Positions 23,608 through 33,050 of a stretch of DNA of 64,000 nt are shown piece after piece. The position numbers and the translations under genes are program-made. This DNA comes from Entomoplasma ellychniae (GTDB lineage: Bacteria; Bacillota_I; Bacilli_A; Mycoplasmatales; Mycoplasmataceae). The notes under the pieces were generated by a model. That model made no database searches. It was not told where the DNA came from and saw only the letters and a program-made list of their open reading frames with translations. The stretch is from contig NZ_PHND01000001.1 in NCBI RefSeq assembly GCF_002930155.1, positions 248,001 through 312,000 on the forward strand, written 5' to 3'. The first letter of the stretch is position 1, and each line of letters starts with the position of its first letter.

Positions 23608-23853
23608 ATGAAAGATACAATTAACATGTCAATGGGTGAAATTATAGCCAATATTAATGAATTAGTTGCAATAAAAAAGACTAGAGAATTAACAAAAGAA
23701 GAAAATATTTTTAGAGAAGCTTTAAAAAAGGTTTATATAAGCAATTTTAGAGCAGGATTAGAACAACAAATATTAAATACTAAAGTTGTAAATAAAAAAG
23801 GAGAAGATATAACTCCAAAAAAAATTAAAGAGGTAAGAAATGAACATAAATAA
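23608..23853 (+). CDS. DUF896 family protein, YnzC-like
   Basis: 81-residue helical protein with MGEIIANINELVAIKKTRELTKEE, the characteristic helix-turn of the DUF896/YnzC family (a small coiled-coil protein, SOS-linked in Bacillus, with unclear function). The middle NFRAGLEQQILNTKVVNKKG also fits the family. A strong AGGGGG lies upstream and the 3' end overlaps the tkt start by 14 nt, implying coupling. Confidence 0.85.
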   Translation: MKDTINMSMGEIIANINELVAIKKTRELTKEENIFREALKKVYISNFRAGLEQQILNTKVVNKKGEDITPKKIKEVRNEHK

Positions 23854-25810
23854 AAACAACCATAATTTAAATGCTTTAAGAATTTTAGGTGTTGAAGCTA
23901 TTAATAAAGCAAATTCAGGTCATCCTGGTATAGTTTTGGGAGCAGCACCTATAGTTTATACATTGTTCAATAAAATTATGAAACATAACCCAAAAAACCC
24001 CAACTGATTTGATCGTGATAGATTTATTTTATCAGCTGGTCATGGTAGTGGTTTATTATATTCTGCTTTACATTTAGCTGGTTATGATGTGAGTATTAAT
24101 GATCTTAAAAAATTTAGACAGTTAAATTCAAAAACTCCTGGTCATCCTGAATCTCATTTAACACAAGGTGTTGAAGTAACAACTGGTCCATTAGGGCAAG
24201 GAATAGCGATGGGAGTTGGTTTTGCAGTGGCTGAAGCGCATTTAGCAAGTATTTTTAATAAAAATAATGATTTAATTAACCATAATACATTTGTACTATG
24301 CGGAGATGGAGATTTACAAGAAGGTGTTTCTTATGAAAGTATTTCATTTGCGGGTAGACAAAAATTAAACAAGTTAATTTTAATACATGATTCAAACGAC
24401 ATTCAATTAGACACAGAAGTCAAAGCAGTTCAATCAGAAGATTTACATTTAAGATTTAAATCATGTGGGTGAGATACTTTTAAAATTGAAGATGGTGAAG
24501 ATTTAGAATTGATAGAATCAACTATATTAAAAGCACAATCAAGTGATAAACCATCATATATTGAAGTTAAAACGATTATTGGAATTGGTGCTACAAATCA
24601 AGGAACAACTGGAGTTCATGGTGCACCAGTTGGAAATGATATTTTAAATGTAAAATCTTATTTTGGATGAAACGAAGAAGAATTTGTTATTCCAAAAGAT
24701 GTTTATAAACATTGAGAGCAAAATTGTATTATTAAAAATGAAATAATTGAAAAAGAATGAATTAAAAAATTAAGTTTATTAGACAAAGAATTGTTACTAA
24801 AATTTAATAAACACTTAAATAACGAAATTAATTTTGATTTCATGTCACTGTTAAATGAAATGCCTTTAAAAAATGAAGCAACTAGAGTAAGCAGTGGAAA
24901 CATTTTTGATAAAATAAATAACTCACAAACAAATTTAATTGGAGGTAGTGCTGATTTAGTTGGTTCGACTAAAATTAAAGGTGCTGATGGTATATTTGAT
25001 ATTAATAATCGTAGTGGACGTAATATTTTGTATGGTGTAAGAGAGTTTGCTATGGGAGGTATTAATAATGGTATTTATAAACATGGAGGTTTAATTCCAT
25101 TTGCTTCAGGATTTTTTGTATTTGCTGATTATATGAAACCAGCAATAAGATTAGCATCAATTATGGAAAATAAAACTTTATTTATTTTTACACATGATTC
25201 AATTGCTGTTGGTGAAGATGGACCTACTCATCAACCAGTCGAACAATTAGCAATGATTAGAAGTATTCCAAACCATATGTTATTTAGACCATGTGATTAT
25301 GCTGAAACTTTAGCAAGTTATGAATACATGCTAAATAAGTTAAAAAAAACACCTTCAAGTTTGATCCTTACAAGACAAGATTTAAAACAGCTACCTCACA
25401 ATAATGTATTTGAAGAAGTTTCTAAAGGTGCCTACATAATTAAAGATGAAAAAGATGCACAAATTACTTTAATAGCTACTGGTAGTGAAGTTGAATTAGC
25501 AATTAGTGTTAGTGAATTATTAGATGAACAAAATTTTAAAACAAAGGTTGTATCAATGCCTTCAACTAATTTATTTGATCAACAATCTCAAACATATAAA
25601 GATTCAATAATTGACAAAAACACTTTAAGAATTTCAATTGAAATGGGAACTACTTATGGGTGAGATAAGTATACAGGAGATAATGGATTAAATTTTGGAA
25701 TTGATAAGTTTGGAGCTAGTGCTCCAGCTATTGATGTAATTAAAGAATATGGGTTTACAAAAGAACAAATTTTTAATACAATTATAAAAGTAATTAGAAA
25801 AGAGAAATAA
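23840..25810 (+). CDS. tkt: Transketolase
   Basis: 656-residue thiamine-diphosphate enzyme of the non-oxidative pentose phosphate pathway, moving two-carbon units between sugar phosphates. Residues seen: N-terminal ANSGHPG, the TPP motif GDGDLQEG (about 152-159) running to the conserved HDSN, the second-domain HDSIAVGEDGPTHQPVE with the conserved Glu before it, and the C-terminal domain. Start ATG 23840 follows AAGAGGTAAG inside the end of ynzC. It is followed by yneF with a 3-nt gap. In a wall-less mollicute lacking an oxidative branch this is the route to pentoses for nucleotides. Secure. Confidence 0.97.
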
Positions 25811-25813
25811 AAT

Positions 25814-26062
25814 ATGATTCTAGCATCAACATTTTCAAGTGGAGCTTTAGCAGGGATGTTAATTGGAGTTATTGTCGGGGCTATAATTATTGGAATCATT
25901 ATTGGTTTTTTTATAACAAGAGCTATGGTAAGAAAACAAATTAAAGACAATCCACCAGTAACAGAAAAACAAATTAGAGCAATGTATATGAGTATGGGCA
26001 GAAAACCCAGTGAAGCTGATATAAAAAGAACAATGCGTTCAATGCAGCAAGCTAAAAAATAA
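25814..26062 (+). CDS. UPF0154 membrane protein, YneF-like
   Basis: 82-residue protein with one N-terminal Gly/Ile-rich transmembrane helix (about 10-35) and a basic cytoplasmic part with EKQIRAMYMSMGRKPSEADI, the hallmark of the UPF0154/YneF family. Function unknown. It is the last gene of the yqeH-tkt operon, 3 nt after tkt, before an intrinsic terminator. Confidence 0.92.
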   Translation: MILASTFSSGALAGMLIGVIVGAIIIGIIIGFFITRAMVRKQIKDNPPVTEKQIRAMYMSMGRKPSEADIKRTMRSMQQAKK

Positions 26063-26286: not shown

Positions 26287-27067
26287 ATAGCTGATGTTGA
26301 GAAAGTTGTGAGTCATATTAAAAATAAAACTGATATAAATGAAGTTAATCAAGAGTTGATAAAAGTTAAAGTTGATGGTATTAAAAAGCTTGAAGCTTTT
26401 GAACTTGAAAATAATAAAACAGATTTTACAATAAAAATTAGTGTTGTTGAAGGCAAAACAATTGATAGTGATAATTTTATTTTGACTAAAGCTATAATTG
26501 ATAATCCAATTGTTCCAGAAGGTGAATATGTAATAAGTTTTGAAGAATATATAAAAAATTTCCCAGTAACACCGGTTCTGAACAAGAATTTCAGGTGATT
26601 GAAATATTAGCTACTGGGATACAACTAATGATGCTTGATTTAAGGGATGAACAAATAAGAAAATTAAAACATGATTTGTTGAAGAATGCATAGACCCAAA
26701 TTGACCATGAGATAAGGGAATAGCAGGGGTTGCTTCAATTGAAAAATTTCATGGTGTTTTTCCTGATAAAAATTTATTTCCTGAGGGTCTTGGACATTTT
26801 GACAACCTTTTAGAATTTAAATCTTCAGATATCTATGAAACAGCAGAAAAATTAGATAAACCATCAATGTTAAACGGAAAACCAATAACAGAAGTGGACA
26901 GGTATTATGAAGTTTCTATCACAACTACAGCTGTAAATTATTTAAAAGAAGCTAATAAAAAACAATTATTAAATTATTTTAATGTAGGTAGTGAAGCTGT
27001 TAATGAATTTAATGAAGGGTTTAATATAGTTGGATCAATAAAAATAAATTTTGTAATATTTAGATAA
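26287..27067 (+). pseudogene. Broken gene of a possible surface protein
   Basis: AAAGGA at 26273 is followed by ATA, not ATG, at 26287 and an open frame of about 105 codons (ADVEKVVSHIKNKTDINEVN onward). This has the pattern of mollicute lipoprotein repeat domains (short helical segment, then strands such as NFILTKAIIDNPIVPEGEY). It stops at TAG 26608. A second reading frame overlaps from about 26571 and runs without a stop to TAA 27067, with many TGA-coded Trp (SGDWNISYWDTTNDAWFKGW). Either one frameshift split one gene, or two gene pieces have been joined. There is no signal peptide, so the true 5' end is lost. Family not recognised. Confidence 0.6.
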
Positions 27068-27151
27068 AAAAACAACACAACAACATTTTTATATGTTAAT
27101 ATTAATTTATCAAAGAATACTTTGAGATCAAGACTCGCATGCAAATGCAGG

Positions 27152-27179
27152 AAAAAAGGAACCCACGGGTTCTTTTTTT
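27152..27179 (+). terminator. Intrinsic terminator
   Basis: AAAAAAGGAACCC and GGGTTCTTTTTT form a stem of about 12 bp with a very short loop, followed by T residues. It lies 85 nt after the broken gene. Confidence 0.85.
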
Positions 27180-27206
27180 ATAAGAATATTAATTAAGAAA
27201 GAAATA

Positions 27207-27524
27207 ATGATGATACACGAAAAAGAAATTTGATTAGGTTTTTCAGAAAGCCCTGCTGACTACTTTGATGATTCATTATCATTTAAAGAAGCAAGACCTT
27301 TTATAATCACTAAAGTTTATTCTGGCACAAGTTTAATTAGAGTAACAGAAGCATCAACAAATTTGAAACAAAAATATATCATTGATGTAGAATTAAATTC
27401 CGGCAAAGTTTTACAATTTGATAAGTATTCAAGTTATATAATTAATGTTAAAAGTTTAAAACAAAAGTTGAAACCACTTATTGGACCAACCTTTGATAAA
27501 AAGTATAAATATATTAAAAGATAA
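27207..27524 (+). CDS. Small PemK/MazF-like protein (tentative)
   Basis: 105-residue protein, too short and TGA-interrupted for standard-code finders. AAGAAAG precedes ATG 27207 (a second ATG follows at 27210). The order of features, EIWLGF near the start, ARPFIITKV about 20 residues later, RVTEASTN, and a C-terminal FDKYSSYIINVKSLKQKL, resembles the EIW / RPxLVI / VDQ..T layout of PemK/MazF mRNA interferases. No antitoxin gene is adjacent. The match is by pattern only, and a hypothetical protein with an SH3-like barrel is an equally safe description. It lies between decaying genes and converges on the PlsY fusion gene. Confidence 0.5.
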
Positions 27525-27574: not shown

Positions 27575-27616
27575 AGTTGAATCTCCCCCTACAAAAAAGT
27601 TATGAACCTTTTTTTA
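27575..27616. terminator. Weak bidirectional terminator between convergent genes
   Basis: AAAAAAGTT and AACCTTTTTT around ATG give a short imperfect hairpin with A/T tracts on both sides, between the PemK-like gene and the end of the minus-strand PlsY fusion. Confidence 0.4.
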
Positions 27617-28873
27617 TTCAAATCCTTGACAACCATTAATATCTAAAAATGCCTTATATCCTAACTCTAATGCGTGCTCATAAGTAGCTTTAACACAAAC
27701 TTCCAAAGCTACACCAACAATGGTTAATTCTTCTATATTATTTTTTTTTAAGAATTCATCTAGAAAGTTTGAATTGCCTTTTTCATCATAAAAAGCACTA
27801 TAACTTTCAGCATCTTTTTTAGTCCCTTTAATTATTATCTTATCCATTAAATTCTCATCAATATAAAGATCACAACCTTTAGTACCATTTAAACAATGTT
27901 CACCTCATTGCTTGAATGAATAATGATCAATTGGGTGATTATCTTTTGTTGCTATAACTAAATTACTATTATCTTTAAATTCTTTAATCAATTTTAAAAT
28001 ATATTCTTTTTTTGTTTCAGCATGTTTTACATATAATTTACCATTAGGATCAACAAAGTCATACTGGTAATCGACTATTATCAAAGCTTTATTTATAAAT
28101 CCGTTTTCTTTAACTGATTTTTGTTTAATTGGAAAAATCCTTTGTTCTGTACCATTTTTTAATCTTTTCATATTTGGTATATGTCTAATAGCTAAAATTA
28201 CTATTCCTATCAATATACATATTTGAGCAGTTACAATACCATCAGCAAATTCTTTGTTAGATGTTAGTGTGTGCAATCAATTGTTAAACGAAAACATTCA
28301 TAATCCATTTGCTCAAGTTTCTTTAAAACCTTCATATCCATTTCATTGATAAACAAAATTATTTGTTCCATATATTCAGGGAAAAAACATTAGTATAAGA
28401 ATAAAAAAAGTAGCTATAATCGATGACAAACTAACTTTACCTGTTGATAAAGCGACTATTCATCAAATAATAAAAAAACACAAAAATAATGATGGAGAAA
28501 CAACAAGTATTAGCCCACAAAAACAACTAACAGCTTTTCCCCCTTTAAATTTAAATCAAATTGGTCAACAATGCCCAATTATTGCAAATACACATGGTAT
28601 AAAATAACTTGTTTGTGAAAACAATTCACTCGGAATACAACTTAATCCAAATGCAACAAACGCTGTAATAACTACTTTAAAACCATCCAATAAAGCAACA
28701 ACTAAAGCTCATCTTTTCCCCAATGCTCTTAAAGTATTTGTAGCACCAGGGTTGTTAGATCCAAAATCGTATATATTTATATTCCTAACTCATTTTGAAA
28801 TATGTACTGATCAAAGCACACTACCATATAAATAACCAAATATTGATGCAAGAATAATTCCTAAATAAAACAT
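27614..28873 (-). CDS. PlsY-nicotinamidase fusion protein
   Basis: Single 419-codon frame from ATG 28873 (AAGGAG upstream) to TAA 27616. Residues about 1-245 are a PlsY acylphosphate:glycerol-3-phosphate acyltransferase with membrane helices and family motifs GSNNPGATNTLRALGKR (from about 39) and GHCWPIWFKFKGGKA, ending with the usual RHIPNMKRLKNGTEQRI. After a short Lys-rich linker, residues about 260-419 are a nicotinamidase: catalytic D268 (LIIVDYQYDF), metal ligands D311, H313 and H317 (DNHPIDHYSF), catalytic K349 (IIIKGTKKD) and C393 (GVALEVCVKA). Both halves look active. PlsY makes lysophosphatidate at the membrane; PncA makes nicotinate for NAD. Junction is inside one uninterrupted frame, so this is a true fusion, not neighbouring genes. 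Confidence 0.9.
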
Positions 28874-28974
28874 AAATTATTACTCCTTTTAAGATTATCA
28901 ATTTATATTATAACAATTTAAGTTAAAAATTTGTGTTATTATCTTTTTATATGAAAACCTTGGGAGAATAAAAA

Positions 28975-29286
28975 ATGGATATTAAATTCAACAAAAATGA
29001 AAATTTAACTATTGAACAATTACAACTTCAAAATGAAAAATTAAAAGAACAACATAAAGTATTAGAAACACAAATTAAAGCAGTTGAAAAAAAAGTTATA
29101 GGTTTTTTATGATTATTTTGATTTATTCCAATTCTTGGGTGAGTTGTATATACAGTTATTTATTCTAAAAGAAAACAGTCTCCAGAATACTTAAAAGTTA
29201 TGTTACCAATTAAAGAAGAAATAACAATAAATGAATTGCAAGTTATGCATAATAATATTTTAATAGAAAAAAAAGATATACAGTAA
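28975..29286 (+). CDS. Small coiled-coil membrane protein
   Basis: 103-residue protein from ATG 28975, with GGGAG 10 nt upstream. Residues about 10-42 form a helical heptad-like region (LTIEQLQLQNEKLKEQHKVL), followed by one Trp-rich transmembrane segment (about 43-63, FLWLFWFIPILGWVVY, with TGA as Trp) and a cytoplasmic tail. No family recognised. It is divergent from the PlsY fusion. The stop codon lies inside the loop of the following terminator hairpin. Confidence 0.72.
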
Positions 29287-30124: not shown

Positions 30125-31129
30125 ATGAAAAAATTATTAGCAGTTAGCTCGACAATTTTAATGGCTGTTACCGGAACTTTAGCATTAACAGCAAGTTCCT
30201 TCGTAACTCGAACTTCATCAAGAACACCAAATGATGAAATAAACTCCTTTAATAAAGTTATAAGTAGTCAAATGAACTACTCACAAGAATCCGCCAAAGA
30301 TGGGGAAATAGAACAAATTTTATTTGTTAACAATAAAGAAATGATTTTAGAAAAATTAGAAATGAGTAAAGAATTAGACGGCTTATTTTGTAATTTTGTT
30401 CAAAATGAACAAGAAAGTGTTTCTGAAATAGTTGACAATGATTATATTATAGAATATGCAAAAAATGAGTCTCGAAAAATTCTTGATCATTTCAAGGGTG
30501 AAAATATTAATTTTTCTGCTCTTATTAATTATTTACAAACAACAGTTACTGAATTTGGAAGAACATATAATTTGTATATAAATGGTATTAAAGGTGTTAA
30601 TGCGCTTCCAAACCATAAATTAAATAAAATTGCTTTTGAACCAACCCTTGGTGGTGGTATTGGTGGTGGACATATTAGTCCGCCTTACACACCAACAGAT
30701 AGCTTGGAAGGAATCCACAAATTAGTGAAAGAACTTAAAATTGTAAAAACTGCCCTTGTTACGGCCTCTGCTGCAGCTGCTATTGCTGCTGCTGGATTTT
30801 ATGCAGCAGCTGTTGTAAGTTTTGGTATATCAGTAAATTGAGCTATTGGTTGTACTGCAATTAGCGCTGCTACCGCAGCTGCAGTAGAAGGATTTTTAGC
30901 ATTAGCCTTAGTAAAATATGATGAAAGCATGAGCAATATTAAAAAAGGCGCATCTGCTATTGCTGCAACTTTGTCAATCGGGCGTGTTTTAGGGAGCACA
31001 ACGAAAACAATACCGATGACTGCATCACTTTCTCTTACTCCAATATCTTGAGAATTTCCACCTTTTTTGGCTCTTATTGGTACAATAGCAGCAGTAATAG
31101 AATTAATAGATGTAGTTGTAAGAGGATAA
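30125..31129 (+). CDS. Secreted protein with Gly-rich linker and Ala-rich hydrophobic C-terminal half
   Basis: 334-residue protein starting at ATG 30125 with AGAAAGGA upstream. An N-terminal signal peptide (MKKLLAVSSTILMAVTGTLA) ends in ASS without a lipobox Cys, so it is probably secreted. Residues 35-160 are charged and helical. A Gly-rich linker (LGGGIGGGHISPPYTPT) precedes a C-terminal half of Ala/Gly-rich hydrophobic helices (about 205-330) that could insert into a membrane. The layout recalls pore-forming bacteriocins, but I recognise no family. It sits between a dead ABC ATPase and a broken small membrane protein. Codon choice (GCC, GGC, CTC, CGG) is less AT-biased than neighbours, hinting at transfer. 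Confidence 0.72.
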
Positions 31130-31134
31130 TATTT

Positions 31135-31653
31135 ATGATGACTTGAGATATATATGCATGTCTGATTTTTGCATTCATTGCTTTAGCGGTTGGTTTTCCT
31201 CTCGCGGCGCATGTAGCATACATAGCTACATGAAAATATAAATACTTATATATTACTATGAGTTTTGGTCAAAAAATAAATATAAATGAGTTTCCAGTTC
31301 TTTTAAAGGAGAAGCAGAAGAATGTTATATTAAATATTTTAAAGAAAATAATGAGGTGTTAGAATATCAAAAAATTATTTTATATGATATAAGTCTAAAA
31401 AAGTTTCTTGACGTAACAAATCACTTCAAAATTATCAAAAAAAATAAAGAGAAAAATTCAAACGGTTGTTTTAAAAAATGATCCATATAAAGAACTTAGA
31501 CTTTTCTTACGTTATTTAAGAGCTTATGGACTTTTTATTCAACAAATCCGCAATGATTGTATATTTAAAATAATCATTGACCATAAAAATATTGATTTTA
31601 ATGATTTGCAATTTATTTTGATAAATAACTTCCAATCTATGCTTAAATCATAA
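31135..31653 (+). pseudogene. Frameshifted membrane-anchored protein
   Basis: Starts ATG 31135, 5 nt after the secreted protein, as MMTWDIYACLIFAFIALAVG with one hydrophobic helix. The first frame closes at TAG 31363. A coherent continuation lies in a second frame (SSFKGEAEECYIKYFKENNE and on), then a third (RKIQTVVLKNDPYKELRLFL to TAA 31653). Two frameshifts are therefore needed to rebuild a protein of about 172 residues. The upstream codon usage and its tight spacing suggest it once formed an operon with the secreted protein, as an immunity or helper protein might, but this is inference. Confidence 0.6.
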
Positions 31654-31866
31654 TACGCACCAGTTTGGAGGAAAAAATTTTCAACAGGTTATTAAATACT
31701 TGGCTACTAAAGTTCTTTAACATCTTTAAGTATTACATAAAATGAAATTAAGACACTATTTCTCTTATATATAATTTTCTAAGTATAAAAAAATGTCTTA
31801 ATATACGGACAATGAATATGTTTTGAACATAATTTTGAAGTATACAAAATGTTTTTTATAAAATAT

Positions 31867-31899
31867 AGGTCATTTCACTTTTGAAATGACTTTTTGTTT
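31867..31899. terminator. Hairpin near the IS end
   Basis: GTCATTTCA and TGAAATGAC form a 9-bp stem with a 4-nt loop, followed on the plus strand by TTTTTG. It lies just downstream of the transposase remnant and may terminate transcription entering or leaving the element. Confidence 0.6.
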
Positions 31900-31910
31900 G
31901 ATTTTAATAA

Positions 31911-33050
31911 TCACAAGCTGGTAGTTTTTTTAGATTTAACCCTAATTTTAGTGTAATTATAATAATTTATATAGTTATCTATTAATTTACAAACTTCTTC
32001 AAAAGTACTTTTTTCTAAAACTTCTGGGCATTCAGTTTTTAACTGCGAAAAGAAAGTTTCACATGCCGCATTGTCTAAAAAACAACCTGGATTTGACAAA
32101 GAAATAGTTAAGTTATTATTTTTTGCAAATCTTTTATGCTCAAATTGAGGTGTATTGAACACCATTATCTGAATGTGTTATTTTTGGTTCTAAAGGATTA
32201 TAAAATCTTTTTGCATTTTTTCATGTATCTTGATAAATTTGATTGTTGTTGAATTTTGAAACATTATGTCCAACAATAAAACCAGTGGCAACATCTTTTA
32301 AGACACTTAAGTAAACAAACTTTTTGTTGCATTGTATATAACAAACATCAGTCACTCATAATTGATCTTTTTTGTAACTAGCCCAATTTCTATTAACAAA
32401 ATTTTAAACTTACGATTCATGTTTTTTATTTCTTTAGGTTTATTTTTAAACTTTTAATTCTTCACTTGAAACAGATTTAAAAGTTTCATGTATCTGTAAA
32501 CTTTAGAATAACTAGCTGTTACTCTAAAGTTTTCTAAATAAATTTGTGTTCTTTGATATTCATATTTAGCATTGTTTTCATAAAAAACACTTTTAAATTG
32601 CTTAGCAAATGATTTATCAAATTTAATTTGAAAATCTGGAATATCTTTTTTAATATATAAATAATAAGTTCTTCTTGTAATTTTAAGTACAGAATATATT
32701 TGGTATATTTTATATTTCTTTTTTAGTGATTTTCTCATCAGTTCATCAATCTTTTTTAAAATATCATTTTCCATATTAGATTGTTTAAGTTGTTTTTTTA
32801 AAATAACTATTTCTTTATCTTTTGAATTATGTGAGTTGATGAAAGGTTTAATTTACTAGTTTGACTTTTTAAAGAATCAAGTCGATAAACTTCATAATCT
32901 AAACATCACTTTCTAATTGCGGAATATGACACTTTGTATTTTTTTTGATAATTGACCAAAAGACATTTCATTTTGTAAATGATCTTTTAATATTATTTCT
33001 TTTTGTTGAGCTGACAAGATAATTGATTTATTGGCTTTGATATTTGACAT
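31911..33050 (-). pseudogene. IS3-family transposase OrfA-OrfB remnant
   Basis: OrfA begins at ATG 33050 (AAGGAG upstream) with MSNIKANKSIILSAQQKE and an HTH; a frameshift in an A-run is needed to recover SKKYKVSYSAIRKW. OrfB pieces follow: MENDILKKIDELMRKSLKKK, IYQIYSVLKITRRTYYLY, and after stops the DDE core THSDNGVQYTS, one more frameshift, then LSNPGCFLDNAACETFFSQL with the catalytic Glu region and a C-terminal NYYNYTKIR. At least four frame breaks show that the transposase is dead. The motifs are textbook rve/IS150-type. Confidence 0.82.

Follow-up and report, generated by a model that had tools for sequence, protein, structure and literature searches.

PlsY has a seven-transmembrane (7-TM) fold with its active site open to the cytosol, and in the Aquifex enzyme the pocket for glycerol-3-phosphate (G3P) is made up of residues Ser35, Arg45, Lys104, Ser142, His177 and Asn180 (PMC5700162). 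PlsY is also known in fused form, as the PlsY-DegV proteins of Bellilinea caldifistulae and Thermanaerothrix daxensis (UniProt A0A0P6X7I7 and A0A0P6XUK7; PMC5700162). Among the papers searched, we found none that combines PlsY, nicotinamidase and fusion.

Here we analyze a stretch of 64,000 nucleotides from Entomoplasma ellychniae (contig NZ_PHND01000001.1, positions 248,001 to 312,000; hereafter, the window), in which a previous sequence-only reading had described a PlsY and a nicotinamidase (PncA) joined in one uninterrupted frame. The source genome assembly comprises 900,037 bases in 3 contigs and is 99.75% complete. The window has a G+C content of 25.0%, compared to the 26.2% given for the E. 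ellychniae genome (PMC6117150). The same paper puts Mesoplasma corruscae (PHNF00000000) very near E. ellychniae (PHND00000000, 900 kb).

A single reading frame contains PlsY and nicotinamidase domains

The proposed fusion of the two genes was borne out, as positions 27614-28873 of the minus strand form a single open frame of 419 codons that contains both Pfam domains under genetic code 4, where TGA specifies tryptophan. The 13 in-frame TGA codons of this frame are read as tryptophan, as are those in homologs within the family, and under code 11 the frame breaks into pieces. The gene and its surroundings contain the following features:

27614-28873, minus strand: fused plsY-pncA gene (open frame under code 4, Pfam)
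28160-28840, minus strand: PlsY domain, residues 12-238 (PF02660, pocket residues, fold match to 5xj5-5xj8)
27626-28087, minus strand: nicotinamidase domain, residues 263-416 (PF00857, active-site residues, fold match)
28097-28144, minus strand: junction or linker, residues 244-259, comprising the former plsY tail and intergenic remains (junction alignment; residues 251-257 predicted to be disordered, pLDDT <50)
28100-28111, minus strand: AAAGAAAACGGA, a degenerate remnant where relatives have the pncA ribosome-binding site (-2.5 kcal/mol to the anti-SD)
28094-28096, minus strand: ATA codon (I260) where relatives have the pncA ATG start (junction alignment)
28883-28889, minus strand: AAAGGAG, ribosome-binding site of the fused gene (-8.8 kcal/mol to the anti-SD)
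28907-28912, minus strand: TATAAT, -10-like motif upstream of the fused gene (consensus match only)
28975-29286, plus strand: divergent, conserved 103-aa neighbor (44-51% identity to the plsY neighbors in genomes G003, G037, G031, G034, G027, G021 and G014)

The first half of the protein matches PF02660 (PlsY) over residues 12-238, covering the full profile (1-164/164; E 6.8e-41, 140.5 bits, cut-off 24.1), and scores just over the cut-off of the NCBIfam PlsY model TIGR00023 (139.2 versus 137.2 bits). The second half matches PF00857 (isochorismatase/nicotinamidase) over residues 263-416 (E 3.2e-19, 70.1 bits, cut-off 27). Because Pfam finds both of these families in the 419-codon frame, we conclude that it is not a chance open frame. 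The best NCBIfam match of the second half is the nicotinamidase model NF008623 (107.9 bits, E 6e-31), with a score below the equivalog cut-off of 174 for this model, which was built on E. coli-type PncA. Given that the top matches of this half in the PDB, by sequence and by fold, are nicotinamidases, "nicotinamidase" is its best name, and nicotinamide its presumed substrate.

Active-site residues and predicted structure of the fusion

By alignment, the six G3P-pocket residues of Aquifex PlsY map to S39, R49, K113, S151, H231 and N234 of the fused protein, and all six are kept. The nicotinamidase catalytic triad (D268, K349 and C393) is likewise in place, and alignment to the Pyrococcus horikoshii nicotinamidase (1ilw/1im5) places the metal ligands at D311, H313 and H326. 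Of the residues that the sequence-only reading had listed as catalytic or metal-binding, D268, K349, C393, D311 and H313 therefore stand, but the third ligand in this alignment is H326 rather than the H317 that was proposed. H317 is also conserved among relatives, and we take it to match an additional ligand site of M. tuberculosis PncA.

The AlphaFold2 model of the fusion (mean pLDDT 92.2) contains two confident domains, with only residues 251-257 scoring below 50; its pTM is 0.67, and the mutual orientation of the domains is not fixed by the model. It matches the PlsY structures 5xj5-5xj8 (TM-score by target 0.79-0.83) as well as many nicotinamidases in the PDB. The PlsY half contains hydrophobic segments in line with a multi-pass membrane fold, and residues 230-262, after the last helix, include 9 lysines and arginines and 2 aspartates and glutamates, a composition that fits a cytosolic C-terminus. 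The PlsY half would be expected to insert in the membrane as usual with its C-terminus in the cytosol, and the nicotinamidase would then hang on the cytosolic face via a flexible linker.

plsY and pncA lie side by side, unfused, in five sister-genus species

The sister genus is probably the Mesoplasma florum group. Five of its seven species (G003, G037, G031, G034 and G027) have plsY and pncA next to each other on the same strand as separate genes, with a spacing of 51-76 bp. The sister-genus pairs adjoin the same divergent gene, whose product in the window has 103 aa, and farther out are ribF and a gene for a membrane protein; because the divergent neighbor is common to both we consider this to be the same locus. 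The sister-genus genes also share order and strand with the fusion (identity 61-64% for PlsY and 67-73% for PncA), but they are two genes with a stop codon, a terminator hairpin, a ribosome-binding site and an ATG between them, where the window has one frame. G003 and G037 had appeared as candidate fusions, as each gave a continuous match across both halves, and were rejected on finding internal stop codons that mark separate genes.

The locus varies further within the sister genus. Two other genes separate plsY from pncA in G021 (L037:2986-5060), and pncA is absent in G014 (L038:3189-3409). In G031, where the metal-site aspartate of PncA is replaced by tyrosine (L034:3015-3506), pncA may be decaying. 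In other genera of the family, matches to plsY and pncA, where both exist, lie far apart.

Several additional observations concern the surroundings of the fused gene. The transketolase and yneF-like genes of the window (23840-26062) match the surroundings of plsY in G023, a member of genus g9 (L041); the window keeps both contexts, resembling G023 on the transketolase/yneF side and the sister genus in ribF, the membrane-protein gene and the 103-aa gene. Three short plus-strand open reading frames, two of which were tested and had no Pfam match, lie in the interval from the yneF-like gene to the fusion (26308-27524) and are possibly the remains of a decayed gene. On the other side, the genes at 28975 and 33160, contiguous in the sister genus, have between them (30125-32165) an open reading frame with an N-terminal signal-like stretch and no Pfam match (30125-31129) and an integrase-core (rve_2) fragment on the minus strand (31779-32165).

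Expression signals between plsY and pncA are lost at the junction

In the relatives, the plsY stop codon is followed by a hairpin and then a run of T's (-11 to -15 kcal/mol in six genomes), and the interval continues with a TATAAT-like motif in most of them, a pncA ribosome-binding site (-4.7 to -9.4 kcal/mol to the anti-SD) and the ATG. Measured from a common point in the junction alignment, the window sequence falls ~45 bases short of G003 or G037, and from its sequence and folding energy the window junction contains no stop codon, ATG, GTG or terminator-like hairpin. At the position of the ribosome-binding site, AAAGAAAACGGA has a predicted energy near the background median of -2.0 kcal/mol, and the pncA ATG of the relatives is ATA in the window. 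As the ribosome-binding site has decayed and the ATG is now ATA, pncA has probably lost independent translation. The only start-like codon near the junction is TTG264, which lies within the first strand of the nicotinamidase domain.

Both halves of the fusion retain conserved positions

We compared the fused protein with those of 19 relatives having both genes. All 28 invariant PncA positions are kept in the fusion, as are 41 of the 45 invariant PlsY positions; none of the four departures (A56 for G, I98 for L, S126 for N and F163 for W) is a pocket residue. Fixed-tree distances to genus g9 are 1.17 for the PncA half (1.19-1.26 in the unfused sisters) and 1.16 for the PlsY half (1.04-1.12 in the sisters), so that the PlsY half has evolved slightly faster than in the sisters. 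Pairwise dN/dS values against the sisters are 0.10-0.25 for PncA and 0.24-0.32 for PlsY; these are rough, as dS is near saturation, and like the distances they also average over time before the fusion. The C-terminus of the fusion is 3 residues shorter than those of the sisters. Judged from these comparisons, both halves look constrained, over a period that includes pre-fusion time, which argues against a decaying tail. The nicotinamidase is dispensable in the group, with at least G014 lacking pncA, and it could be drifting here.

The fusion is the only copy of each gene and was not found in the relatives searched

Neither whole-protein nor per-Pfam-family searches found a second plsY or pncA in the ~900 kb source genome. 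Separate copies of these genes elsewhere, which the sequence-only reading had named as grounds for doubting the fusion, are thus not found in the assembly. For PncB, the next enzyme in the pathway, there was no match to PF04095 or PF01729 in the source genome. A nicotinate phosphoribosyltransferase-like stretch (G000:C1:451285-452034) matches TIGR01513 under its curated cut-off (E 3e-19), and the same weak match is present in 8 of 9 genomes tested, G021 being the exception; these weak matches suggest that mollicutes have a PncB of divergent sequence and that G021 may have a gap here.

We found the same fusion in one open frame in none of 320 genomes of the order, a set that includes 59 others of the same family and no second species of the window's genus, and in none of the matches listed for a sample of 395 genomes of the class. 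One listed candidate, a PlsY in G060 with an open frame of 400 residues, is actually an ordinary PlsY of 273 aa. A pattern scan of contigs aimed at named relatives gave nothing but an irrelevant Eubacterium contig, although several of the patterns include tryptophan and would overlook it where TGA encodes it. A search of relatives had been suggested as a test for an ancient functional fusion; with 0 of 320 genomes of the order sharing the fused frame, there is no sign of one, and an ancient origin is unsupported.

Origin and meaning of the fusion

We consider it quite probable that the plsY-pncA gene is a lineage-specific fusion that arose from a deletion between neighbors, with both reactions likely kept and no functional link required. 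Fusion after such a deletion was one of the two explanations offered previously, and it is strongly supported by the unfused, adjacent genes of the sisters and by the absence of ~45 bases with the stop and hairpin. The two genes were probably already adjacent and separate in the ancestor shared with the Mesoplasma florum group. A net deletion of ~45 bases would then have merged the frames by taking out the plsY stop along with the hairpin of the terminator and the promoter-like sequence, and the redundant pncA ribosome-binding site and ATG would have decayed, such that translation would now start at the plsY start (AAAGGAG, ATG). The PlsY half most likely converts acyl-phosphate and G3P to lysophosphatidate, and the nicotinamidase half most likely converts nicotinamide to nicotinate. 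To our knowledge, the two pathways have no common metabolite or step, and as neither enzyme needs the products of the other, we expect no channeling between them. The joining was probably accepted since the tail was tolerated, and not from a need to couple lipid and NAD metabolism. We infer the order of these events, as well as a single uncleaved polypeptide, both activities, membrane anchoring and the neutrality of the joining.

Other explanations of the fused frame can be weighed against this one. It seems rather unlikely to us that the gene is fused but gives rise to two proteins, either because the disordered linker is cleaved or because the nicotinamidase is also started internally, at ATA260 or TTG264. 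Residues 251-257 would be open to proteases and TTG264 is in frame, but there is no ATG or GTG, the ribosome-binding signal before ATA260 is at background, and initiation at TTG264, inside the first strand, would remove the start of the domain. The absence of pncA in G014, the metal-site change in G031 and the C-terminus that is 3 residues shorter than in the sisters could each be seen as signs that the nicotinamidase half is a passenger becoming a pseudogene, open merely because it follows PlsY. We assign this a low probability, as the half keeps 28/28 invariant positions without acceleration relative to the unfused sisters, in a genome without other pncA. That a sequencing or assembly error joined two genes is extremely improbable, even with a fusion that rests on one genome. 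An error would require a clean loss of ~45 bases that joins the frames plus, separately, conversion of the ATG into ATA and a lost ribosome-binding site; since several independent changes are needed at the junction, a single read error is insufficient, and the additional loss of the pncA ATG itself makes sequencing error unlikely. Furthermore, read mapping was used to check the E. ellychniae assembly, which has ~880x coverage (PMC6117150).

The fusion could instead be adaptive, producing a bifunctional protein in which the nicotinamidase is anchored in the membrane beside PlsY, for example near a nicotinamide transporter, or is made in an amount tied to PlsY. We find this improbable, as no other species searched shares the fusion, the two pathways are established as having no common metabolite or step, and chance neighborhood and a deletion suffice without any benefit, despite the constraint on both halves, the retention of PncA when it is dispensable in the relative G014, and the precedent of PlsY-DegV, for which there is a plausible functional reason (PMC5700162). 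It is just as improbable that the lipid enzyme sets the amount and position of the nicotinamidase and so links membrane growth to NAD-precursor salvage. Of the functional tethering proposed in the sequence-only reading, the tethering itself follows if the frame yields one uncleaved chain, but a benefit from it is unsupported; were tethering useful, it would constitute a novel connection of PlsY with NAD salvage.

Under the deletion origin that we favor, this domain combination, present in no other genome searched, is a new architecture with an ordinary origin. The locus occurs among close relatives in several states: adjacent genes with a terminator, genes separated by an insertion, absence of pncA, a pncA whose metal site is damaged, and the fusion. 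It illustrates how, in a compact genome, the loss of a short intergenic stretch can join two unrelated metabolic enzymes that both remain constrained, and a "Rosetta stone" inference of a functional link from gene fusion would mislead here.

Comparison with known PlsY and nicotinamidase proteins

Like the fusion in the window, the PlsY-DegV proteins carry a soluble domain on the C-terminus of PlsY (PMC5700162). They occur in bacteria unrelated to the source of the window, and their partner domain resembles the fatty-acid-binding protein FakB and could pass substrate to PlsY (PMC5700162), whereas nicotinamidase is metabolically unrelated to PlsY. The PlsY of Aquifex aeolicus (5xj5-5xj9) has the same fold and G3P-pocket residues as the PlsY half, but it is a stand-alone protein of 201 residues, in contrast to the window's PlsY with its longer stretch at residues ~168-212 and C-terminal fusion. 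Similarly, the nicotinamidase of Pyrococcus horikoshii (1ilw, 1im5) and other PncA structures share the fold, the catalytic Asp/Lys/Cys and the metal ligands of the second half, but these proteins are stand-alone soluble enzymes, unlike the fused form encoded in the window.
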